This document shows, in pieces, positions 4,051-63,660 of a stretch of DNA of 64,000 bases; within the stretch, counting starts at the first letter, position 1; each line of letters opens with the position of its first letter. A program made the translations under genes and the position numbers. The DNA is from Struthio camelus. Lineage: Eukaryota > Chordata > Aves > Struthioniformes > Struthionidae. The stretch is taken from the NCBI RefSeq assembly GCF_040807025.1, contig NC_090946.1:79420641-79484640 (forward strand). The letters are read 5' to 3'. The notes below the pieces were generated by a model. It did not search any database, had not been told where the DNA came from, and worked only from the letters and a program-made list of their open reading frames with translations.

Positions 4051-6953
4051 GTACGGCGGGGCCGGGGGGCGCGTGAGGGGAGGTGACGGCTTTAGAGCAG
4101 CCCCAAGGAGTTCGGGGGGCGGGCGGGAGGTCTCAGCTGTTCCCGGCGGCTCCTTCTGGGAAGCACCGGGTCCTTCCGCGCCGCCAGCAGCCGCTTCGCC
4201 CAGCCCCTAAACCTGCCCAGTTTTCTTCCTTGAAAAACACCTGTGCTGCCCGCGGCCTCGGCTCTAGGTTGGTGCCCTTCCGGCTAGAGCGGGAACTACT
4301 CGCCGCTTTGTTTTTCCTGTGCAAACTATTCTTTCGGTTCTTTCCTCTCCCTGTTTTGTTTTTGGGTTTTTTTTGTTTATTTTTTTTTAAGTCCTATAAA
4401 TCTTCAACTTCAGTTCTCAGTCTTTCCATATAAGCCCCCCGTCCCTTTCCTGCTACTAATCTTTGCTTGCCTTTGTTCTAGTTTAAATTTAATTTTTCTG
4501 GGGTGAGGTGCTGCTCAGAAACCATAACCGGAAAAGAAGAGGAGATGGGTCTTTTGGTCCCGAATACCAAACGACGGTTAGAGAAAAAGCTTTTAGTCCT
4601 GAGCATGTCATTGGTTTGTGACGAGCCCAGAGAGACCACGGCTCATCTCTTGTGTAGTATTACTTTTGTGGACTTGGGTCGTGAGCTGATGATGCATGTT
4701 ATGAAAAAAAGCAGGAAACTCCCTCTACCTCTGTTTTCTTTTCAGGTTTCAGTTGAATTCTTCTGGAGAATTACTTACTGTGAAAGGTAGATCACTTGCT
4801 CTTGAGGCTTATCAGGGGCAGAAGGACTTAGGTGGGTCTTTACTATAACAGCTAAGAAAATATTGTGGTGCGTATTTAACACTTTGGGGGAGGGGGGGAA
4901 TATTCTGTAAATGTATTGTATTTATCAAAATTTAAGGTAAATGCAGCTTTCTGTAAGCTTTTCTGATAGAAAGCTGGGTATATTCAATGAATATGGGTTA
5001 TGTTACCTTCCTCCAAGGCACTGATTTGCAAACTTGTACAAGCACTCTGAAAGGGCCTTTGCTATGCTAGGAGCATGTTTAAGGAGTCCCAGACACAGAA
5101 TTTATCTGCAAGTCTGGCGAGGATGAGCGTTCGGAGTTGATGCCGGTTGCTGCTTTTGGGAATGATTTTTTTCCAGTGGACACAAAATTCCTGCTCCTTC
5201 TAGGAGGCAGATAGAAAGTCATTAAGAAAACCATACTGGTTTTTTGATGAATTTCCATAACACCCTTGGAACTACTACTAAAATCAGTCCAAAGATTATA
5301 TTTGGAATTCCTCAAGAATTAACCTTCCTTTTTCACCTGTGTGTGTAAACAGGGACAAGTATGACGTATGAAGTGGAGTCCAGCTAGTCTGATCGCTTGC
5401 AATCATTATTAATTAACTGTCATTAATGAATTGTTGCAAGTTGGAATGCATTAATGGATGGAATATAAGATGCTTGACACTCACAAATCGGTGGCACTGA
5501 CGTGCACATGTTCCTCTAGAATTGTGTGGAAGACATCCAGTCTCTGACTTGAGAGCTTTAAGCTGAGTTTTGCTTCTATTCCTGTTTGATAACTTACATT
5601 TCCATTGACCGTTTTCCCTCCTGCAGCGCTGAATATATTGAAAAAAGAAGCAAAACTTACCCTTTTAGATTTCTGGATCGTATATTATCACCAGTCTCTA
5701 TTCCAAGCACTTACAGATGATTGTGCGTGTACTGTTGGTGCTATGCAAATACTTGGTTCATGAATACTGCGTTGAAGTTGGCCGCAAGGAGCTGCCGCTG
5801 CCAGCAGCAGCGGTGTCTAAACAGCCTTTGTCTGTATCCCTTTGTGGGGTAGCTCAGATCCTGTCCTTTGTTGCTGTTTCTGTAGATATATGCAGCTTAA
5901 GAATACGTTACTATTTATTTTTGTCCTCTTTGTTTATTTTGGTACTCTTTCCCCCCTCTCCTCCCGCAACATTTAGAGTATTCAGTATTCAGCTAGATCT
6001 CTGGTCTTTTTCTTTGCTTGAGATGGTGGGGTTTTTTAACTAGGAGCAGATAATGAGGTTTTTGACTTTAAGAAGTCCTGTGCATCCCTATTCAAGGCTG
6101 ATCTCAACCCAGTTCTCTTCAACTTGCTGTCTTGAAATTAAGAATCTCAGTAACTGACCTGTAGTTGGCTATTTATTTTAGCTGTGTCACTATTACTTAT
6201 TCTGAGGCTGTTTTCTATAAGTAATGGAAGATGAGATTTCAAGAAGACCCTGATTAAAGTGGCAGACAAGATAAGGCCAACTACAAGAACAGAGTACTGA
6301 TTCTGTCCTCTCTCCAGGAAAAAAGCATGAACCCCCTTACCCTCAACAAGGCAGGCTTCAGTGGGATGCAGCAGGTGGAGCGTTATGCAGGGCTGTTAGC
6401 ACGATAGTGTGAACAGGCCAACTAATGCTTACATCAATTATTCCACAGGTTAAAAAAGGTAGGGAGAAATCCTATGTGAAATCAACATAATTGTATTGCA
6501 GTTGCATCCGGGAAGCTCAGTTAGGAAACAGTGCCAAGTACTCCGCATGACAAAAACGTCCTGCCCTCGGATAGGCTGTAAACTAAACGCTCAGTGGCAA
6601 TGCTGCTTCCAAGTATTGTCCTACAACTTTGTCATTTACTTGTATTTTCCATGTTAAGGAGACAAGCGTGTTGGAAACAGACTAGCCAGCCAATCCCAGG
6701 CAGTGACAAAGCCTACCCTGCTAATTCTGTGTCAGACTTGTTGCTGATTTTTAACTAAGCAGCCCCTTAGATACATAAAATATGGGGAAAAAAATGAAGA
6801 ATCATTGCTGAAACTGTGAATTATGTTTTCACTGGTACACATACAGAAATGAAAAACTGAAGTCTTTCTTTGTTAATAAAATGCAAACTCTGTTGAAAAT
6901 GGCAAAAACAGAACATGACAGCTTTTTTCCTAATCATTATGATTTTTGTGCAG
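4051..6953 (+). other. DLGAP5 intron 1
   Basis: About 2.9 kb between the leader exon and the first coding exon, moderately AT-rich, with no recognisable repeat family. One possible cassette exon, 4746-4785, is bounded by a strong pyrimidine tract plus CAG and by GAAAG/GTAGAT, but nothing else supports it. Confidence 0.5.
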
Positions 6954-31389: not shown

Positions 31390-31545
31390 TTATATCATGG
31401 TAGGCATAACGCTGGTGAGAGAGATGTCCCCAGCAATGCAGAGTCTGGTGATTTCATTCAGTCTCTTCTCCCGGTAGTTGTACTGCAGCAAGTGAGCATC
31501 ATTGACTGCTACCTTGAAGTGATCCACCTCACAAAGGATCTGGAG
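31390..31545 (-). CDS. LGALS3: LGALS3 exon 6, terminal coding exon
   Basis: Acceptor TTATTTCAG; encodes [20 protein letters not shown] through TMI with stop TAA at 31390-31392. Phase 0 in. Carries the last CRD strands. Confidence 0.95.
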
Positions 31546-34115
31546 CTGAAATAAAGACACCAGATTAGACAAAAGATAAATTCTAGATTTGTTGCAGTTT
31601 TAAGGCACAAAATCGGACTGAAAACAAGCAGGTCTGGCACCTGGTGAAGGGCTGCTGCCAGCCGAGTCCAGCCTGGTGGTGTGTAGGAGTAGGAGCTGGT
31701 ACAGCAACTGTCATTTGCAAAAACAGTGATGGTCTTTGCCTTCCCAGAAGCCCTCATCTACTCTTTCTCCTTGACAATTTAGCTAAGCATCTCCTCATGA
31801 CTACTGCAATGTTTTCAGGTTGCAGTGCCCAATGTTTCACGGTGAGAGCTGCCTTCTCACCATGCGTTGAACCCACTCTGCAGGAGAAGCAGCTCGAGAA
31901 GGGTTGTTGGCTGCTCTCCCTGCAGGCTCTTTGGAGACCTAACTGATCTGAAGCTGACTTACCCTAAATAGAGGGGAAAAAAATGCCTTATGGAAACCTG
32001 TTAAACAACTGCTGGAGCATGGCAGCGTAAATGGAGAGCATTTAAAAGTAGAGAGGGAGAACATAAATAAGCAGAAATTAAATCTCAGGCATCTTCCTTC
32101 TAAGAGGGAGCAGATTCGTGTGGGAAAGCATCAAGGTCCTTATAGTTATTCCCCACCTCGTTACACAGCCCTGATGAAACAACTCTGCCAGCATGTGGTA
32201 GGGGTGCTGCTGGCACGTTAACAGCATGTTGGTGCCACCAGGACATAACTTGCAGGTGGATTTTCGAGTTACCGCTCTCAGAAGACACACATCTAAGGGG
32301 CCCAGCTCCACCAGCCATGTGGGATCTCCAAGTCCCAGCTTTGGGGCTGACGCAACTTTCTGCCCAGACGTCTGCAGGGATAAAGAGCTACAACGCCTAA
32401 CATGCGGCAGTGATGGTGTCGAGTCAAATGAGGGACTGGAGTGGCTGAAGGCTTCTGTAATAAACTGCTTTTACAAGCAGGTAGAGAAACTGCATTTTTC
32501 AGACAGGAGAAAGGGTGTGTCTGTCCGTCTGTCATGTACCGAACAAATTGGCCCTTTTGGGTGTGGTTAAGGGGTTTGAGGGGGTTTTTTTTGCGGTTAC
32601 CTTGAAGGGTTTTCCAGCTTCAAAGGGAAACCTAGGTGCCGTTCTCTCCTCCTTTCCCCAGTTGTTCTGCAACATTGAATTACAGACGATGACTTTTCTG
32701 TTATCCTCGTTGAAGCGGGGATTAAAGTGGAAGGCAATATCGTGCCCTCGCTTGAAATCCAGGGAAAATCTGCAACGACAGCAAGGGTTTAGCCGCTTTT
32801 GCCGCGAAAGCCCCGGCCTCTGTTACAGGGCCTGCCGAAAGCAGCGCTGCGCCCGCAGGGCTGCTGCTGGGTGCTCGGCGCCCCGCTACCTGTTTGGTTT
32901 TGCGTTCGTCGTCCCCGTGACGGTTATGAGCATCCGCGGCATGAGGCCCGCCTGCAGCGGCAGCTCGAACGGGACTTTCTGGGAAAGAGCAGGGATTTGG
33001 CGTTGGCGGGAAGGCACGTTAACATACAGCCAAAGCCCAGGGCTCGGGCGCGGGCTGGGGGGGGGGTCTCGAGGCACAGCAGGAGGCTGTGGCTTCACAA
33101 CATCCCGGCCCATCGCTCGCGTGTCCCCGCAGAGCCCCCCCTCCCCGCGCCACCAGGGTGACGTGGTGCTTGGCCGCCCGCAGGCCCCCGTGAGCCCACG
33201 GAGGTGTTCGGCTCCCGCTCGGGGCCCCTCGACCCCTGCGGCCAAGCACGGCTGAAACCCGACGGAGCCGTTACCATCGATGCGGCCCGTCCCTCTTGCG
33301 GAGGAGACGGCCCGAAGCCAGGGCCGCTGGGCGGCTGCGCCGGGGCAGGACAGGGCCCTGGTCCCGCTGGCGCTCCGGGGAACGCTCCGGGTGCTCCAGG
33401 GAACGCTCCAGGTGCTCCAGGATACGGTCCCGGTCCTGCTGGTGCTCCAGGATACGGCCACGGTGCCCCCGGATAAGCTCCCGGTGCTGCCGGCGGCCCC
33501 GGGTAGGTCCCCGGCGGGCCCGGATACGCCGGGAAGGCGCCGGGGGCCGGCGGCGGGTTGCCCCAGGCGGCCGCGGGCCAACCTTGGCCCGGGGGAGCGC
33601 TGGGGTTCGGGCTGTTCCCGCTGGGCAAGGCGTCAGAAAGCTGCACGGGCAGAGGAGGAGGGTTAGGAAGGAGACGGGAGGGAGCGAGAGGAGAGCCGGG
33701 AGCGAAAGCTGGGCGGCCGGCGGACGCGCTCCTAGCTGCCGGCGGCGGGGAGAGCGCCGTCTCAAGCGGCTCTGGGTTCGTTTGGGAGCGGGACGCTCCG
33801 GCTCACGAGTCCCTGCGGGTCCCCCGACCGCCGCGGGCTTTGGGGCAGGGTCTTGCCGTCTTTCGCGGCCGGCATCGCACGCCAAACGCGGCCACGCAAG
33901 CGTCCGTGAGCAGCTAACGCGATTTGAGGTTTCCAGGAAGTGGCTTAGCGGTTAGCGTGGGTCTAACTAGGTCGGGGAGTTAGGCAGGGTAGCAAAGACT
34001 AGTTCTCGTTTTTGCAATAGTCCCTCCACTTCCGTGCAACGCAACAGCGACGGGCCCGGCTTTTTTTTTTTTTTTCCTTAAAAAAATCAGTACTTACGGA
34101 GAAACCGTCTGCCAT
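31390..34115 (-). CDS. LGALS3: LGALS3, galectin-3; joined coding exons 2-6
   Basis: Five coding exons join in phase to 265 codons plus stop; chicken galectin-3 is similar in length. Galectin-3 is the chimera-type galectin: a Pro/Gly/Tyr-rich N-terminal part for self-association and one carbohydrate-recognition domain for beta-galactosides; it acts in cytosol, nucleus and, by unconventional secretion, outside the cell. What I see: [14 protein letters not shown] at the start, [10 protein letters not shown], then about ten P-G-x-(Y/F)-P-G-type repeats to about residue 128, then the CRD with [14 protein letters not shown], the sugar-binding HFNPRF, the V..N and NNWGKEER residues all intact, and the C-terminus [17 protein letters not shown]...TMI. 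There is no signal peptide, as expected. CRD exons are 89, 169 and 156 nt. Upstream sits an 8-kb minisatellite. Confidence 0.95.
32601..32769 (-). CDS. LGALS3: LGALS3 exon 5, core CRD
   Basis: Acceptor CGTTGCAG, donor GTAACC. Encodes [19 protein letters not shown] and NNWGKEER, the sugar-binding residues. The loop after EER (TAPRFPFE) looks one residue longer than human (QSVFPFE). Confidence 0.95.
32890..32978 (-). CDS. LGALS3: LGALS3 exon 4, start of CRD
   Basis: Acceptor CTTTCCCAG, donor GTAGCG. Encodes [19 protein letters not shown] then [10 protein letters not shown], phase 0 in and 2 out. Confidence 0.93.
33275..33640 (-). CDS. LGALS3: LGALS3 exon 3, N-terminal repeat exon
   Basis: Acceptor GCCCGTGCAG, donor GTAACG. 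366 nt, phase 0 both ends. Encodes [23 protein letters not shown] and the Pro/Gly-rich repeats of the PGAYPGAP and PGAFPGAP type. GC-rich, as expected for collagen-like coding. The donor after GCATCGATG gives a clean join to KVPFE. Confidence 0.9.
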
Positions 34116-34119
34116 CTTC
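34098..34119 (-). CDS. LGALS3: LGALS3 exon 2, 22-nt exon with start codon
   Basis: Acceptor TTATTCTAG, four leader bases, then ATG at 34115-34113 and MADGFS, then donor GTAAGT. Human galectin-3 begins MADNFS. Too short to be found by ORF scanning; found from the conserved start and splice signals. Confidence 0.9.
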
Positions 34120-34342
34120 CTAGAATAAAAAGACGAAGGGGCGGTCAGTCGTTTTTATCAGCTGCCACCCGAGAAAAAAACCCAGCGCTGCAAAGCCGCA
34201 GATCCCAGCGCCGCGGTCTGAAGCGAGGGGCACGCGACCGGCCTGAGAAAGCCGGGGGCGACCAGCGCCAGCAGCGGCCGCGGGACACGAGCTGGCCTCG
34301 TCTCGGCCGGCATGCGCCGAAGTAGAAAGGGCACCGGGCTGA

Positions 34343-34789
34343 ACGCCACCACCACCACCGGCACTGCTACCACTGCTGCCACCACCGCCACCACCACCAC
34401 CGGCACTGCTACCACCACCGCCACCACCACCACCAGCACCGGCACTGCTACCACTGCTGCGACCACCACCACCACCACCACCACCGGCACTGCTACCACT
34501 GCTGCCACCACCGCCACCACCACCACCAGCACTGCTACCACTGCCACCACCACCGCCACCACCACCACCGGCACTGCTACCACTGCTGCCACCACCGCCA
34601 CCACCACCACCAGCACTGCTACCACTGCTACCACCACCGCCACCACCACCACCAGCACTGCTACCACTGCCACCACCACCGCCACCACCACCACCGGCAC
34701 TGCTACCATCACCACCACCACCACCACCACCACCACCAGCACTGCTACCACTGCCACCACCAGCACCACCACCACCACCGCCGCACTCA
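34343..34789. repeat. GGT/ACC-rich minisatellite in LGALS3 intron 1
   Basis: About ten units of 39-42 bp. On the plus strand each begins GGCACTGCTACCACTGCTG or a close variant and continues as a run of ACC/GCC triplets. On the LGALS3 sense strand this is a long GGT-rich tract. Because all units are multiples of three, several frames stay open over the whole array (poly-Thr/Ala, poly-Gly/Ser, poly-Val), which are not genes. Confidence 0.92.
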
Positions 34790-35016
34790 GCGCAGCAGCC
34801 AGGGGCCGCGCAGCCTCGGCCGGGGCCGCGCAACGAGCATCGTTTCCTCCCGACCCGCGGCCCGGGCACGGGGGGGACCCGGCCCCGGGGGGGCAGCGGG
34901 GCCGCTCCGACGAGCTGCGGCCGGAGCCGGCACCCGCCGCGACAGGGCGGCTGGAGGCGGCGCTGCCACCGCCTGCGGGTCACCCCAGACCCCCGGCCCG
35001 GCCCGGCGCCGCTCAC

Positions 35017-35220
35017 CTGCGGGCTGCGCTCCCGGCGGCCCCGCTCCGGCTGCGCCTCCGCTCCGGCTCCGCTCCCGGCGGCGGCGGCGGCGGCTCCTGT
35101 CCCCGCCCGCAGCGGGGCGGCCCCGGCGGGTCCCGGCCCGGCGCGGGGGGAGCGTCGGCCCCGGCGGCGCCTCCCAGCGCCCGCTCCGCCCCCGGCCCGG
35201 CCCGGCCCCGGCTGCCCGAC
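35017..35220 (-). other. LGALS3: LGALS3 promoter and non-coding exon 1 (5' end uncertain)
   Basis: On the minus strand GCCCGCAG is followed by a textbook donor GTGAGC (35016-35011), so exon 1 ends at 35017. The 200 bp upstream is very GC/CpG-rich with GC-box motifs (GGGGGCGGAG, GGGCGGGGAC) and no TATA box. All of it lies between the donor and the edge of the 24-bp array at 35224, so core promoter plus exon 1 must fit in that interval unless an upstream alternative first exon exists. Confidence 0.6.
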
Positions 35221-35223
35221 AGC

Positions 35224-38200
35224 TCGGTACTAACCCACCGCCCAACCCCGGTACTAACCCACCTCCTCACCCCGGTACTAACCCACCGCCCCACCCCGGT
35301 ACTAACCCACCTCCTCACCCCGGTACTAACCCACCGCCTCACCCCGGTACTAACCCACCTCCTCACCCCGGTACTAACCCACCGCCTCACCCCGGTACTA
35401 ACCCACCGCCCCACCCCGGTACTAACCCACCTCCTAACCCTGGTACTAACCCACCGCCTCACCCCGGTACTAACCCACCGCCCCACCCCGGTACTAACCC
35501 ACCTCCTAACCCCGGTACTAACCCACCGCCTCACCCCGGTACTAACCCACCTCCTAACCCCGGTACTAACCCCCCGCCCAACCCCGGTACTAACCCACCG
35601 CCCCACCCCGGTACTAACCCACCGCCTCACCCCGGTACTAACCCACCGCCCTACCCCGGTACTAACCCACCGCCTCACCCCGGTACTAACCCACCTCCTC
35701 ACCCCGGTACTAACCCACCGCCCCACCCCGGTACTAACCCACCGCCTCACCCCGGTACTAACCCACCGCCCAACCCCGGTACTAACCCACCGCCTCACCC
35801 CGGTACTAACCCACCTCCCCACCCCGGTACTAACCCACCGCCTCACCCCGGTACTAACCCACCTCCCCACCCCGGTACTAACCCACCGCCCAGCTCGGTA
35901 CTAACCCACCTCCCCACCCCGGTACTAACCCACCGCCCAACCCCGGTACTAACCCACCTCCTCACCCCGGTACTAACCCACCGCCCCACCCCGGTACTAA
36001 CCCACCGCCCAACCCCGGTACTAACCCACCGCCTCACCCCGGTACTAACCCACCTCCTCACCCCGGTACTAACCCACCGCCCAACCCCGGTACTAACCCA
36101 CCGCCTCACCCCGGTACTAACCCACCGCCCCACCCCGGTACTAACCCATCTCCTCACCCCGGTACTAACCCACCTCCTAACCCCGGTACTAACCCACCGC
36201 CCCACCCCGGTACTAACCCACCGCCCAACCCCGGTACTAACCCACCGCCTCACCCCGGTACTAACCCACCTCCTCACCCCGGTACTAACCCACCGCCCAG
36301 CTCGGTACTAACCCACCGCCTCACCCCGGTACTAACCCACCTCCTCACCCCGGTACTAACCCACCGCCCAGCTCGGTACTAACCCACCTCCTCACCCCAG
36401 TACTAACCCACCGCCCCACCCCGGTACTAACCCACCGCCTCACCCCGGTACTAACCCACCTCCCCACCCCGGTACTAACCCACCTCCTCACCCCGGTACT
36501 AACCCACCGCTCCACCCCGGTACTAACCCACCGCCCCACCCCGGTACTAACCCACCGCCCAACCCCGGTACTAACCCACCGCGCTAACCCCGGTACTAAC
36601 CCACCGCCCAACCCCGGTACTAACCCACCGCCCAACCCCGGTACTAACCCACCGCCTAACCCCGGTACTAACCCACCGCCCAACCCCGGTACTAACCCAC
36701 CGCCCTAACCCCGGTACTAACCCACCGCCCAACCCCGGTACTAACCCACCTCCCCACCCCGGTACTAACCCACCGCCCTAACCCCGGTACTAACCCACCG
36801 CCCAACCCCGGTACTAACCCACCTCCTAACCCCGGTACTAACCCACCGCCCAACCCCGGTACTAACCCACCACCTCACCCCGGTACTAACCCACCGCCCT
36901 AACCCCGGTACTAACCCACCGCCTCACCCCGGTACTAACCCACCTCCTCACCCCGGTACTAACCCACCGCCCCACCCCGGTACTAACCCACCTCCTCACC
37001 CCGGTACTAACCCACCGCCCTAACCCCGGTACTAACCCACCTCCTCACCCCGGTACTAACCCACCGCCCAACCCCGGTACTAACCCACCGCCCCACCCCG
37101 GTACTAACCCACCGCCCAACCCCGGTACTAACCCACCGCTCCACCCCGGTACTAACCCACCGCCCAACCCCGGTACTAACCCACCGCCTCAACCCGGTAC
37201 TAACCCACCGCCCAACCCCGGTACTAACCCACCGCCTCACCCCGGTACTAACCCACCGCCCAACCCCGGTACTAACCCACCGCCTCACCCCGGTACTAAC
37301 CCCCCGCCCAACCCCGGTACTAACCCACCGCCCAACCCCGGTACTAACCCACCGCCTAACCCCGGTACTAACCCACCGCCCCACCCCGGTACTAACCCAC
37401 CGCCTCACCCCGGTACTAACCCACCACCCAACCCCGGTACTAACCCACCGCCCCACCCCGGTACTAACCCACCGCCTCACCCCGGTACTAACCCACCGCC
37501 CCACCCCGGTACTAACCCAACTCCTCACCCCGGTACTAACCCACCGCCTCACCCCGGTACTAACCCACCGCCCCACCCCGGTACTAACCCACCTCCTCAC
37601 CCCGGTACTAACCCACCTCCTCACCCCAGTACTAACCCACCGCCCCACCCCGGTACTAACCCACCGCCCTAACCCCGGTACTAACCCATCTCCTAACCCC
37701 GGTACTAACCCACCGCCTCACCCCGGTACTAACCCACCGCCCCACCCCGGTACTAACCCACCTCCTCACCCCGGTACTAACCCACCGCCTAACCCCGGTA
37801 CTAACCCACCGCCCAACCCCGGTACTAACCCACCGCCTAACCCCGGTACTAACCCACCTCCTCACCCCGGTACTAACCCACCTCCTCACCCCGGTACTAA
37901 CCCACCGCCCTAACCCCGGTACTAACCCACCTCCTCACCCCGGTACTAACCCACCTCCCCACCCCGGTACTAACCCACCGCCCAACCCCGGTACTAACCC
38001 ACCGCCTCAGCCCGGTACTAACCCACCGCCCTAACCCCGGTACTAACCCACCGCCCTAACCCCGGTACTAACCCACCTCCCCACCCCGGTACTAACCCAC
38101 CGCCCAACCCCGGTACTAACCCACCTCCTCACCCCGGTACTAACCCACCGCCTAACCCCGGTACTAACCCACCGCCTCACCCCGGTACTAACCCACCGCC

Positions 38201-41200
38201 CCACCCCGGTACTAACCCACCGCCTCACCCCGGTACTAACCCACCTCCCCACCCCGGTACTAACCCACCGCCTAACCCCGGTAGTAACCCACCGCCTCAC
38301 CCCGGTACTAACCCACCGCCCAACCCCGGTAGTAACCCACCTCCTCACCCCGGTACTAACCCACCGCCCTAACCCCGGTAGTAACCCACCTCCTCATCCC
38401 GGTACTAACCCACCGCCCAACCCCGGTACTAACCCACCGCCTAACCCCGGTACTAACCCACCGCCTCACCCCGGTACTAACCCACCGACCAACCCCAGTA
38501 CTAACCCACCTCCCCACCCCGGTACTAACCCACCGCCTCACCCCGGTACTAACCCACCGCCTCACCCCGGTACTAACCCACCGCCCCACCCCGGTACTAA
38601 CCCACCGCCCAACCCCGGTACTAACCCACCGCCCCACCCCGGTACTAACCCACCGCCCTAACCCCGGTACTAACCCACCTCCTCACCCCGGTACTAACCC
38701 ACCGCCCCACCCCGGTACTAACCCACCGCCTCACCCCGGTACTAACCCACCGACCAACCCCAGTACTAACCCACCTCCCCACCCCGGTACTAACCCACCG
38801 CCTCACCCCGGTACTAACCCACCGCCCCACCCCGGTACTAACCCACCGCCCAACCCCGGTACTAACCCACCGCCCCACCCCGGTACTAACCCACCGCCCT
38901 AACCCCGGTACTAACCCACCTCCTCACCCCGGTACTAACCCACCGCCCAACCCCGGTACTAACCCACCGCCTAACCCCGGTACTAACCCACCTCCTCACC
39001 CCGGTACTAACCCACCTCCTCACCCCGGTACTAACCCACCGCCCAACCCCGGTACTAACCCACCGCCCAACCCTGGTACTAACCCACCTCCTCACCCCGG
39101 TACTAACCCACCTCCTCACCCCGGTACTAACCCACCGCCCAACCCCGGTACTAACCCACCGCCCTAACCCCGGTACTAACCCACCGCCCAACCCCGGTAC
39201 TAACCCACCGCCCCACCCCGGTACTAACCCACCTCCTCACCCCGGTACTAACCCACCTCCTCACCCCGGTACTAACCCACCGCCCAACCCCGGTACTAAC
39301 CCACCGCCTCACCCCGGTACTAACCCACCGCCCAACCCCGGTACTAACCCACCGCCCAACCCTGGTACTAACCCACCTCCTCACCCCGGTACTAACCCAC
39401 CGCCCAACCCCAGTACTAACCCACCGCCCAGCTCGGTACTAACCCACCTCCTAACCCCGGTACTAACCCACCGCCTCACCCCGGTACTAACCCACCGCCC
39501 AACCCCGGTACTAACCCACCGCCCCACCCCGGTACTAACCCACCTCCTCACCCCGGTACTAACCCACCTCCTCACCCCGGTACTAACCCATCTCCTAACC
39601 CCGGTACTAACCCACCGCCCAACCCCGGTACTAACCCACCGCCCTAACCCCGGTACTAACCCATCTCCTAACCCCGGTACTAACCCACCGCCTCACCCCG
39701 GTACTAACCCACCTCCTCACCCCGGTACTAACCCACCTCCTCACCCCGGTACTAACCCACCTCCTAACCCTGGTACTAACCCACCGCCCAGCTCGGTACT
39801 AACCCATCTCCTCACCCCGGTACTAACCCACCGCCTAACCCCGGTACTAACCCACCGCCCAACCCCAGTACTAACCCACCGCCCAGCTCGGTACTAACCC
39901 ACCTCCTAACCCCGGTACTAACCCACCGCCTCAACCCGGTACTAACCCAGCGCCCTAACCCCGGTACTAACCCATCTCCTAACCCCGGTACTAACCCACC
40001 TCCTCACCCCGGTACTAACCCACCGCCCCACCCCGGTACTAACCCACCTCCTCACCCCGGTACTAACCCATCTCCTAACCCCGGTACTAACCCACCGCCC
40101 TAACCCCGGTACTAACCCATCTCCTCACCCCGGTACTAACCCACCGCCCCACCCCGGTACTAACCCACCGCCTCACCCCGGTACTAACCCACCGCCTCAC
40201 CCCGGTACTAACCCACCTCCTAACCCCGGTACTAACCCACCGCCCTAACCCCGGTACTAACCCACCTCCTAACCCCGGTACTAACCCACCGCCCAACCCC
40301 GGTACTAACCCACCGCCTCACCCCGGTACTAACCCACCGCCCCACCCCGGTACTAACCCACCTCCTCACCCCGGTACTAACCCACCGCCCCACCCCGGTA
40401 CTAACCCACCGCCCCACCCCGGTACTAACCCACCGACCAACCCCGGTACTAACCCACCGCCCAACCCCGGTACTAACCCACCTCCTCACCCCGGTACTAA
40501 CCCACCGCCTCACCCCGGTACTAACCCACCGCCCAACCCCGGTACTAACCCATCTCCTAACCCCGGTACTAACCCACCGCCTCACCCCGGTACTAACCCA
40601 CCTCCCAACCCCGGTACTAACCCACCGCCCCACCCCGGTACTAACCCACCGCCCAACCCCGGTACTAACCCACCGCCCCACCCCGGTACTAACCCACCTC
40701 CTCACCCCGGTACTAACCCACCGCCCAACCCCGGTACTAACCCACCGCCCCACCCCGGTACTAACCCATCTCCTCACCCCAGTACTAACCCACCGCCCAA
40801 CCCCGGTACTAACCCACCGCCTCACCCCGGTACTAACCCACCGCCCTAACCCCGGTACTAACCCATCTCCTAACCCCGGTACTAACCCACCGCCCCACCC
40901 CGGTACTAACCCACCGCCCAACCCCGGTACTAACCCACCGCCCAACCCCGGTACTAACCCACCGCCTAACCCCAGTACTAACCCACCTCCTCACCCCAGT
41001 ACTAACCCACCGCCCCACCCCGGTACTAACCCACCTCCTCACCCCGGTACTAACCCACCGCCTCACCCCGGTACTAACCCACCTCCTCACCCCGGTACTA
41101 ACCCACCGCCCAGCTCGGTACTAACCCACCTCCTCACCCCGGTACTAACCCACCGCCCCACCCCGGTACTAACCCACCACCCCACCCCGGTACTAACCCA

Positions 41201-43287
41201 CCTCCCCACCCCGGTACTAACCCACCGCCCTAACCCCGGTACTAACCCACCTCCTCACCCCGGTACTAACCCACCGCCCCACCCCGGTACTAACCCACCT
41301 CCTCACCCCGGTACTAACCCACCTCCCCACCCCGGTACTAACCCACCTCCTCACCCCGGTACTAACCCACCGCCCCACCCCGGTACTAACCCACCGCCTA
41401 ACCCCGGTACTAACCCATCTCCTAACCCCGGTACTAACCCACCTCCTCACCCCGGTACTAACCCACCGCCCCACCCCGGTACTAACCCACCTCCTCACCC
41501 CGGTACTAACCCACCGCCCCACCCCGGTACTAACCCACCGCCTAACCCCGGTACTAACCCACCGCCCCACCCCGGTACTAACCCACCGCCCAATCCCGGT
41601 ACTAACCCACCGCCCAACCCCGGTACTAACCCACCGCCTCACCCCGGTACTAACCCACCGCCCCACCCCGGTACTAACCCACCGCCCCACCCCGGTACTA
41701 ACCCAACGCCCAACCCCAGTACTAACCCACCGCCCAACCCCGGTACTAACCCACCGCCTCACCCCGGTACTAACCCACCGCCCCACCCCGGTACTAACCC
41801 ATCTCCTAACCCCGGTACTAACCCACCGCCCAACCCCAGTACTAACCCACCGCCCCACCCCGGTACTAACCCACCTCCTCACCCCGGTACTAACCCACCG
41901 CCCTAACCCCGGTACTAACCCACCTCCTCATCCCGGTACTAACCCACCGCCCAACCCCGGTACTAACCCACCGCCTAACCCCGGTACTAACCCACCTCCT
42001 CACCCCGGTACTAACCCACCGCCCCACCCCGGTACTAACCCATCTCCTAACCCCGGTACTAACCCACCGCCCAACCCCAGTACTAACCCACCGCCCCACC
42101 CCGGTACTAACCCACCGCCCAACCCCGGTACTAACCCACCGCCCTAACCCCGGTACTAACCCACCTCCTCATCCCGGTACTAACCCACCGCCCAACCCCG
42201 GTACTAACCCACCGCCTAACCCCGGTACTAACCCACCTCCTCACCCCGGTACTAACCCACCGCCCCACCCCGGTACTAACCCATCTCCTAACCCCGGTAC
42301 TAACCCACCGCCCAACCCCAGTACTAACCCACCGCCCCACCCCGGTACTAACCCACCGCCCAACCCCGGTACTAACCCACCGCCCTAACCCCGGTACTAA
42401 CCCACCTCCTCATCCCGGTACTAACCCACCGCCCAACCCCGGTACTAACCCACCGCCTAACCCCGGTACTAACCCACCGCCCAACCCCGGTACTAACCCA
42501 CCGCCCCACCCCGGTACTAACCCACCGCCCAACCCCAGTACTAACCCACCTCCCCACCCCGGTACTAACCCACCGCCCCACCCCGGTACTAACCCACCGC
42601 CCAACCCCAGTACTAACCCACCTCCTCACCCCGGTACTAACCCACCGCCTAACCCCAGTACTAACCCACCGCCCCACCCCGGTACTAACCCACCTCCTCA
42701 CCCCGGTACTAACCCACCGCCCCACCCCGGTACTAACCCACCGCCCAACCCCAGTACTAACCCACCGCCTCACCCCGGTACTAACCCACCGCCCTAACCC
42801 CGGTACTAACCCACCGCCCTAACCCCGGTACTAACCCACCGCCCAACCCCGGTACTAACCCACCGCCCCACCCCGGTACTAACCCACCTCCTCACCCCGG
42901 TACTAACCCACCGCCCCACCCCGGTACTAACCCACCGCCCCACCCCGGTACTAACCCACCGCCTCACCCCGGTACTAACCCATCTCCTAACCCCGGTACT
43001 AACCCACCGCCCCACCCCGGTACTAACCCACCTCCTCACCCCGGTACTAACCCACCGCCTAACCCCGGTACTAACCCACCTCCTCACCCCGGTACTAACC
43101 CACCGCCCAACCCCGGTACTAACCCACCTCCTAACCCCGGTACTAACCCACCGCCTCACCCCGGTACTAACCCACCGCCCCACCCCGGTACTAACCCACC
43201 GCCTCACCCCGGTACTAACCCACCTCCTCACCCCGGTACTAACCCACCTCCTAACCCCGGTACTAACCCACCTCCTCACCCCGGTAC
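35224..43287. repeat. 8-kb minisatellite, 24-bp unit, about 335 copies
   Basis: One uninterrupted head-to-tail array. On the plus strand the unit begins GGTACTAACCCACC and ends in a variable 10-base tail such as GCCCCACCCC, GCCTCACCCC, TCCTCACCCC or GCCCAACCCC. A 25-bp variant with GCCCTAACCCC recurs and shifts the frame. 8064 bp at 24-25 bp per unit gives about 335 copies. Seven internal units and the left edge carry a CAGCTC variant. Larger duplicated blocks are visible (241 and 265 bp). The minus strand is G-rich with four G-runs per unit. The 8-residue RWVSTGVG-type peptides in long frames here are by-products of the 24-bp period. Confidence 0.98.
41911..42392. repeat. Higher-order duplication (2 x 241 bp) within the minisatellite
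   Basis: Ten units (nine of 24 bp, one of 25 bp) starting with the rare CCTCATCCC variant at 41911 recur at 42152, exactly 241 bp later, and begin again at 42393 before diverging. The variant order within the two full blocks looks identical. Confidence 0.85.
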
Positions 43288-43880
43288 CCAGCGGGGGAAG
43301 GCGGGGGGGGAAATCCCCGGAGGTGGCACACCCCCCTGGCTCCGTCAGTGCGTCCGCCAGCCTCCTGCCCTCCAAAGGCCCCGACCGCGGCCGGCTGCGA
43401 GCCCCCCCGCCGCTGGCCTTGCCCCGCGCGCACCTCCCACCGTGGACCCCCCACCCCGGCAAGCTCCACGTTTCGAAAAGCCGAGGGGGCCACCGACGTC
43501 GCTGTTAACCGCCGTCGCAGGCCGCCCATGCCTGAATCCAGACTCCGGCTCCCTCTTAAGCCCCTCGGCTGCTGCTGCTGCTGCCACCCCCGGGGCCGGG
43601 AGCTTCTCCGTAGGGCAGCGGAGCGGCTCCAAAAAAAACCCAGAAGCCCAAGGGCAGGCTCCGTGGGGAGGGGGGGACGGACACGGACCCGCCGGCCACG
43701 AGCGGCTCCCTTGAGCCGTGACCTCGTCCTCCTCCTCCCGGGCTGGGGAAGGGCGCCGCGGTCCCCCCTCTCCGCAGCCGCACCGAGGGCATCGCAGCGG
43801 AGGCAGGCGCGACCGCTTCAGCGGGAGCAGACGGATGTCCTCCCCGCCAAACAGCAACAGGGAAGTGCCAACAGCTGAAT
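43288..43880. other. GC/CpG-rich block on the far side of the array
   Basis: Strongly CpG-rich with GC boxes and long frames on both strands caused by base composition. No family is recognised and no convincing donor/acceptor pair is seen. It may be the outer half of the LGALS3 CpG island, or hold an alternative first exon. Confidence 0.5.
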
Positions 43881-44400
43881 AACCTGAGCCCTCAGCTTGC
43901 GACAAAGGCTTGGGTTTAATTACAAGCTAGCTAGCACTTTGGGCTTAACGAGCACTGAAACGGTAACTTTTATATAATTGCATGTAGCTGTACTGTAGCA
44001 TTTAAAACAAAGCCGACCAGACTGACACCAGAGCGCTATTTCCCTTCCCGGCGAACAGGCTCTCCAGGCGCACACCTTCAGTGCACCGCTGCGCACTGAA
44101 ACAGGGGCCACAACAGACGCGGACGAGGACCTGCTGGAGCCGCACCGAGGCCTCGCACCGAGGCTTTCCAAGGGCCTCGCACCGCTTCGCGCGGCCCGGC
44201 GAGTCTCGACTTGCTCGGTTTTTTTTTTTTTTTTTCCCCCGCAGCAACTTCTGCTTATTCCCGACAGAGCACAACCCACAACTCCGGCTTTGGCAGCTTC
44301 CTCCTCCCAGAAACAGCGCACGGGTGCAAAAGCGCCGCTCAGACGCCTCCCTCCCGCTCTCCCGGCGCTGGGCCGATGGCAATCCCGCCCCAAAGGCAGG

Positions 44401-52478: not shown

Positions 52479-54240
<1,762 letters not shown>

Positions 54241-63139: not shown

Positions 63140-63660
63140 ATATAGGTTGGAAAGGACCAGTCTCCCCTTCAGAATAGGGTTAGCTTTGAACTCTGTTCAG
63201 TTGCCTTTTGAATATCTCCAAAGATGGAGATTGCACAACATCCCTGGACGGTCAGCCCGGTACTTCAGTGCTATCATTGTGAAGCATTTGAATATCTCCA
63301 AAGATGGAGATTGCACAACATCCCTGGACGGTCAGCCCGGTACTTCAGTGCTATCATTGTGAAGCATTTATTTCTTGTACTTAGTCAGACTTTCCTGCTG
63401 CAACTGAGAAGCATCTGTCTGCTCTATAACCCCCTAGGTAGCTGGAGACAGCAATTAGAGCCATCCTCCCCTTCTCTTCTCCTAGCTAAAAAAAACAAAT
63501 TTCTCAGCCTCTTTTCATATGTCATGTGCTCTAATCCCCTAAGCACGTCAGTGGCCCTCCTCTGAGCTCCCTCCAGTTTGTTGACGTCTCTCGTCTTTTA
63601 ATGGCAAAACTGGGTACAATTGTCTACCTTAGCCTTTCTGAATTTGGGAGGAAAAGACCA
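63140..63660 (-). mobile_element. CR1 LINE copy with internal duplication
   Basis: Starts at the left with the CR1 3' end in reverse (GGTTGGAAAGGACC), followed by GAATATCTCCAAAGATGGAG and TTGCACAACATCCCTGG, typical CR1 text. Further right CCTCCTCTGAGCTCCCTCCA fits more 5' CR1 sequence. It carries an 80-bp tandem duplication. Confidence 0.8.
63207..63366. repeat. Two tandem 80-bp copies inside CR1
   Basis: The block 63207-63286 is repeated at 63287-63366 with no difference that I can see; both begin TTTGAATATCTCC and end GTGAAGCA. Both are followed by TTT, consistent with slippage or unequal exchange at a short TTT match. Confidence 0.95.

Follow-up and report, generated by a model that had tools for sequence, protein, structure and literature searches.

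How did an 8-kb tandem array come to stand in front of the galectin-3 gene of Struthio camelus, and what might it do to that gene? The question concerns a stretch of 64,000 nucleotides (here called the window) from contig NC_090946.1 of the assembly GCF_040807025.1, positions 79420641-79484640, in which a 24-bp minisatellite lies beside LGALS3. With a rough probability of 0.62, we favour the reading that the array is a GC-rich minisatellite, private to this locus, which grew within the open CpG island of the LGALS3 promoter, and that its effect, if any, would come mainly from spacing and from SP/KLF-type sites.

The array occupies positions 35225-43287 of the window and is C-rich on the plus strand and G-rich on the minus strand, the latter being the LGALS3 sense strand. 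Tandem Repeats Finder (TRF) gives it 8,063 bp, 335.2 copies, a 90% match and a score of 12536, by far the strongest of the 13 TRF rows in the window. We split it into units by cutting at GTA[CG]TAAC anchors; the 335 anchors delimit 303 units of 24 bp, 24 of 25 bp and seven of 23 bp, while the terminal one runs into a partial copy. After this last copy was trimmed, 38 unit types were counted, and the four commonest (58, 55, 52 and 43 copies) make up 208 of the 335 units. A 17-base unit pattern, allowed at most one mismatch, matches the window 335 times; the mean over 100 shuffles is 0.00. With its head-to-tail arrangement and a unit length within 10-60 bp (period 24, 335 copies), the array has the structure of a minisatellite, or variable number tandem repeat (VNTR). 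It is more than composition: it is real as a tandem repeat, not as a field of classic G-quadruplexes (G4s).

The array unit is also private to this locus, being confined to one place in the 1.45-Gb assembly of 262 contigs that we searched. A 72-base query taken from the array returned at least 143 matches, all of them inside the array. The unit pattern, again with at most one mismatch, matched the genome 343 times, 335 of these in the window, and a control with the pattern reversed matched 17 times. At full length, the right and left flanks have one match each, the remaining matches being partial (one for the right flank and 43 for the left); one haplotype is therefore represented.

The flanking gene, judged from its joined exon peptide, is LGALS3 on the minus strand: the peptide, assembled by hand, matches galectin-3 structures with a best E of 1.7e-62. 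Its exon 1 appears to end at 35017, with the donor CAG/GTGAGC (35017/35016); within 33.5-46 kb, the minus strand has no other site that matches at least eight of the nine donor positions. A gap of 207 bp (35018-35224) separates this donor from the array. Since the donor is the sole strong one, there would be room for exon 1 and the core promoter within 35018-35224 on the minus strand (GC 0.89, CpG observed/expected ratio (o/e) 0.97), and we infer that LGALS3 transcription starts there. The array would accordingly lie a few hundred base pairs upstream of the gene start, the 207 bp being counted to the donor and the start itself being placed by this reasoning. An initial annotation of this DNA had described an 8-kb array of about 335 units that ends about 200 bp from the exon 1 donor and abuts the LGALS3 promoter. 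Size, copy number and distance are all borne out, and a giant GC-rich minisatellite does lie beside LGALS3; the position of the promoter itself is a prediction from the donor. If exon 1 is used in this way, LGALS3 transcription would not read the array, which lies upstream of it, and upstream antisense transcription would give a C-rich RNA. A bacterial promoter and terminator scan of 35000-35230 gave no match, and such models have no bearing on a bird promoter.

CpG-island-like windows are continuous from 32700 to 44200, including the array, whose CpG o/e is 1.13. When the array is excised, 500-bp windows to the left of, across and to the right of the join have GC values of 0.84, 0.81 and 0.74 and CpG o/e values of 0.90, 0.90 and 0.77. 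As these windows stay CpG-island-like across the join, the flanks form one CpG island with the array inside it, and about 900 bp of that island is placed 8 kb upstream. This distal part (43288..44200, delimited by GC and CpG windows, no strand assigned) is thus 8 kb from the putative core promoter through the array. At the unit junctions, 313 of 334 CpGs are intact, 17 read CA and four read TG, which fits a young or weakly methylated array. The strand bias of this CpG decay was examined as a possible trace of R-loops; counted by units (17 vs 4) it has P 0.007, a value inflated by duplication, and counted by distinct contexts (11 vs 3) it has P 0.057.

How the array grew may be read in part from its units. 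Unit diversity is uniform over the array, at 0.84-0.89 across seven blocks. The longest internal duplication is a 357-bp exact repeat at a lag of 241 bp, or 10 units (41881..42478, plus strand, copies starting at 41881 and 42122), and a run of 14 identical units is found at lag 10, compared with a longest run of six in 60 shuffles of unit order. All seven 23-bp units terminate in CAGCTC, as does the left edge of the array (GACAGCTC/GGTAC). To us, this shared ending looks like a remnant of the local sequence from which the array was founded, in agreement with growth from local DNA, but later exchange between edge and interior could have produced it as well. Unequal exchange, gene conversion or replication slippage, acting repeatedly, may have enlarged the array while its chromatin was, presumably, open in the germ line. 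Its origin might be tied to promoter CpG islands acting as recombination hotspots in birds, which lack PRDM9; an association of bird hotspots with start sites in CpG islands is described in the available excerpt of PMC11703093.

The surroundings of the gene are consistent with such an origin. In 264 kb around LGALS3 (75 N), the 24-bp array is the only one longer than about 1.1 kb, the next being a merged cluster of rows of 1,099 bp. Arrays longer than 150 bp were counted there after merging overlapping or close TRF rows. At least one CpG-island-like 500-bp flank was found for six of the seven arrays, as opposed to 9.8% of random points (binomial P 5.5e-6), and for four of five when they are merged as clusters (P 4e-4). 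Both flanks are CpG-island-like in three of the seven, against 4.5% of random points. The seventh array, at 63207-63369, has no such flank. It consists of an 80-bp piece, by its look part of a CR1 long interspersed element, duplicated exactly in tandem. In ten 5-kb samples taken elsewhere, the longest array measured 331 bp, besides one stretch (C30:2000001-2005000, L043) in which all 5 kb is a satellite array of a 471-bp unit.

What might the array do to LGALS3? The initial annotation pointed to classic G4 motifs, with G-runs of the form GGGGTGGGGCGGTGGG in every unit and hundreds of copies in phase. The G-runs of this form occur in only 59 of the 335 units (types C and J, in agreement with 59 counts of CCGCCCC). 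The canonical rule (G3+N1-7, four runs of at least three G with loops of 1-7 nt) gives no match at all on the G strand of the array, whereas 100 mononucleotide shuffles give 46-71 (about 57). By this standard rule, classic G4s in phase at the LGALS3 promoter are rejected. The zero is not strong evidence of avoidance: when each of the four commonest units was permuted and tiled 5,000 times, 86-94% of the results were also free of canonical G4s. Runs of three or more G are spaced mostly by 8, 4, 9, 1 or 2 nt, and never more than two successive gaps are of 7 nt or less.

Relaxed rules alone support a G4 array. They find 308 two-tetrad motifs (G2 L1-4) and 205 long-loop motifs (G3 L1-12), and the G4Hunter mean is 1.32, with 80% of 25-nt windows at or above 1.2. 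Four G-runs of at least two G are present in 306 of the 335 units, the commonest run patterns being 4-2-2-3 (136 units), 4-3-2-3 (85) and 4-4-2-3 (73). In RNA folding with quadruplex terms, 11 of the 14 commonest unit types come out with a two-tetrad structure, although RNA energies are only a hint for DNA. From these relaxed motifs one could construct a functional rheostat, that is, a regulatory VNTR whose length and unit make-up tune galectin-3 through G4 and i-motif structures on complementary strands, as is reported for the insulin-linked polymorphic region (ILPR) of INS. In the excerpt of PMC12852952, ILPR reporter activity tracked the stability of the i-motif, not of the G4, and both structures were required. 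We nevertheless consider a rheostat improbable here: the 8 kb hold no canonical motif, MAZ-type sites are absent, and the array lies upstream of the putative start, so that LGALS3 transcription would not open its DNA.

The ILPR (unit ACAGGGGTGTGGGG), which the initial annotation had named as a precedent, does prove to be among the closest cases, and its activity as a promoter element has been put to the test (PMC12852952, excerpt). Like the LGALS3 array, it is GC-rich and strand-asymmetric, lies a few hundred base pairs upstream of a gene start, has short-spaced G-runs and comes in several unit variants. The same excerpt places it 363 bp upstream of the INS start and states that it can act via paired G4 and i-motif structures. 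The LGALS3 array has another unit (24 bp) and another length (about 335 units), and it is far less G4-prone: in this comparison its G4Hunter value is 1.38, and that of the ILPR unit when tiled is 2.29.

A second alternative starts from the other close case, the CSTB dodecamer of the EPM1 (Unverricht-Lundborg) expansion, likewise a C/G-rich promoter minisatellite near a start. It lies about 175 bp upstream of the start, and healthy people carry 2-3 copies of it, patients 30-80; more than 30 copies lower promoter activity, with altered spacing as one cited cause (all from the excerpt of PMC9655992). The LGALS3 array could be a natural counterpart of this expansion that separates upstream elements from the promoter and lowers LGALS3 output or shifts its start. 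Its position, 207 bp from the exon 1 donor and splitting the CpG island, would agree with that. We think this doubtful, however: the array is itself CpG-rich and may serve as part of the island, and LGALS3, with its coding exons and splice sites intact, probably retains some form of expression. Unlike the CSTB expansion, the LGALS3 array stands, with about 335 units, beside an intact gene in an assembled genome.

In our preferred reading, growth of a locus-private minisatellite within the promoter island, the main possible effect on LGALS3 would be mechanical and combinatorial. The array would push whatever lies more than about 200 bp upstream out to 8 kb, and it would contribute tens of SP/KLF-type sites rather than hundreds of classic G4s. 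An effect through spacing and such sites therefore seems to us more likely than one through classic G4s. The sites amount to 73 copies of CCCCACCCC (shuffle mean 13) and the 59 of CCGCCCC (shuffle mean 22); the motif strings were not taken from a motif library, and, the repeat being tandem, a single unit sets every count. EGR-type CCGCCCMCG has 0 copies in the array, with a shuffle mean of 1.7. In the mouse, KLF3 is reported as a repressor of Lgals3 (excerpt of PMC7286919, which cites another study), and the 73 CCCCACCCC sites are for that reason worth testing, but no more. In human LGALS3, the minimal promoter (-97/+52) is rich in GC and carries Sp/KLF-type sites, and its activity changes when upstream segments are deleted (PMC13144414, excerpt). 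As the gene has intact coding exons and splice sites, we expect the array to be near-neutral or a mild modulator of LGALS3. Its length probably varies between birds.

Several observations weigh against this reading. The neighbourhood test was post hoc, with cut-offs picked after the list had been viewed; the arrays in it have a GC-rich context in common, and several lie in the same island. Elsewhere, too, CpG-island-like windows are not uncommon: 56 of 460 windows in the ten 5-kb samples qualified, all from three of the ten. The generic KLF-type string CCNCNCCCN is not enriched, with 184 copies in the array and 197 in shuffles, and MAZ-type CCCTCCC has 0 copies in the array against a shuffle mean of 24.6. 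The private changes at junction CpGs (the 17 CA and four TG of 334) are among the commonest, and the array may have undergone some germ-line methylation. Variation in length is argued from one haplotype of one bird.

Other motifs in the unit add little to the picture. The invariant block GTACTAACCC (positions 2-11) holds one of 13 distinct non-CpG allele changes in 10 of 22 positions (P about 0.005, 24-bp units, counted by hand); with C positions alone the count is one of 11 changes vs 4 of 13 C positions (P about 0.1, by hand), and we claim no constraint on the block. TACTAAC occurs in 332 copies on the plus strand, in nearly every unit. We take it to be the yeast branchpoint consensus; an antisense splice-site role found no support and was rejected. 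CTAACCC heptamers number 397 in the 8 kb, about 1.2 per 24-bp unit, against only 23 of CCCTAA, and there are no tandem hexamers, so the array is not an interstitial telomeric repeat of head-to-tail TTAGGG/CCCTAA. The Jeffreys-type fingerprint core GGAGGTGGGCAGG presumably finds a partial match only, the G strand of the T-type unit containing GGAGGTGGG.

That the assembler inflated or collapsed the copy number is very unlikely. Only a single haplotype is present in the assembly, which would leave room for such an error; on the other side, the window contains no N, rare unit types appear in each 48-unit block, and any 501-bp stretch of the array is unique, the longest exact repeat being the 357 bp given above, so that long reads can place it. 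Least probable of all is that the array is transcribed or coding, as part of the LGALS3 first exon or as a repeat protein: one plus-strand frame does read GTNPPPHP per unit with variable third codon positions, and the stop-to-stop frames that overlap the array reach 661 aa, but the seven 23-bp and 24 25-bp units shift the frame repeatedly and no listed frame spans it.

Among other minisatellites, the human CEB1, CEB25 and HRAS1 resemble the LGALS3 array as GC-rich tandem arrays. According to the excerpt of PMC3486850, such arrays stimulate gross chromosomal rearrangements in yeast and are described as subtelomeric; CEB1 and CEB25, not HRAS1, form stable G4s in vitro. In the LGALS3 array, in contrast, no canonical G4 motif is present, and its distance to the contig end is about 5.2 Mb. 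The chicken assembly galGal4 has 12,310 minisatellite arrays, or 1.27% of the genome, denser on some small chromosomes (PMC4992247, excerpt), and their 11-60 bp units are like the 24-bp unit of the LGALS3 array. Overall, the array is a new, very large instance of the repeat class known from the INS ILPR and the CSTB dodecamer.

A second G-rich minisatellite, 42 bp x 10.4 copies by TRF, lies in LGALS3 intron 1 (34344..34780, minus strand). Together with the 24-bp array on the other side, it encloses the putative first exon between two arrays whose sense strand is G-rich. Relatives of the intron 1 array occur on many contigs, mostly at 66-82% identity (40 of 85 candidates scored). Two of them, L032:2978-5046 (2.1 kb) and L033:1352-4518 (3.2 kb), have GGT/GGC-type units and a GC skew of about 0.7. 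Beside the former, GC is 0.79 and CpG o/e 0.99; beside the latter, CpG o/e is 0.87-1.03 and GC just 0.53-0.60. Matches of equal identity and query range were seen at C40:69306077-69306384 and C41:88769886-88770193; our guess is that these two large, late-numbered contigs are the sex chromosomes.

The remaining parts of LGALS3, all on the minus strand, are the coding part of exon 2 (34098..34115, MADGFS), exon 3 with a PGAYPG-type repeat region (33275..33640), exon 4 (32890..32978), exon 5 with the galectin domain PF00337 by Pfam match (32601..32769) and the coding part of exon 6 to the stop (31390..31545). The ends of exons 3 and 4 were read by hand, as were the GT/AG splice sites of coding exons 2-6, whose frames are open. 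The upstream neighbour, in the same orientation, has a MAPK1IP1L coding exon at 52936..53661 (minus strand; PF15822, E 3.4e-102). On the other side of LGALS3, a plus-strand frame at 6943 resembles the N-terminus of DLGAP5, and three plus-strand pieces gave no Pfam match. The order MAPK1IP1L, LGALS3, DLGAP5-like gene is presumably that of human, and frames at 11.8-12.7 kb in the window look CR1-like to us.

Among the matches listed from the open-licence PMC literature, we found no earlier description of a repeat at the bird LGALS3 promoter. It is tempting to go further and suppose that bird promoter CpG islands, as sites of recombination hotspots where PRDM9 is lacking, are nurseries of locus-private GC-rich minisatellites, the LGALS3 array being an extreme tolerated case that splits its island, shifts the upstream part by 8 kb, makes galectin-3 output depend on allele length and represents a healthy counterpart of CSTB; we put this forward as a long shot. 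If array length does vary, birds would offer a natural dose series for how far promoter DNA can shift before a CpG-island gene responds, here at a gene with a part in inflammation. Should the neighbourhood pattern prove to be genome-wide, it would tie the recombination hotspots of birds to the birth of promoter minisatellites.

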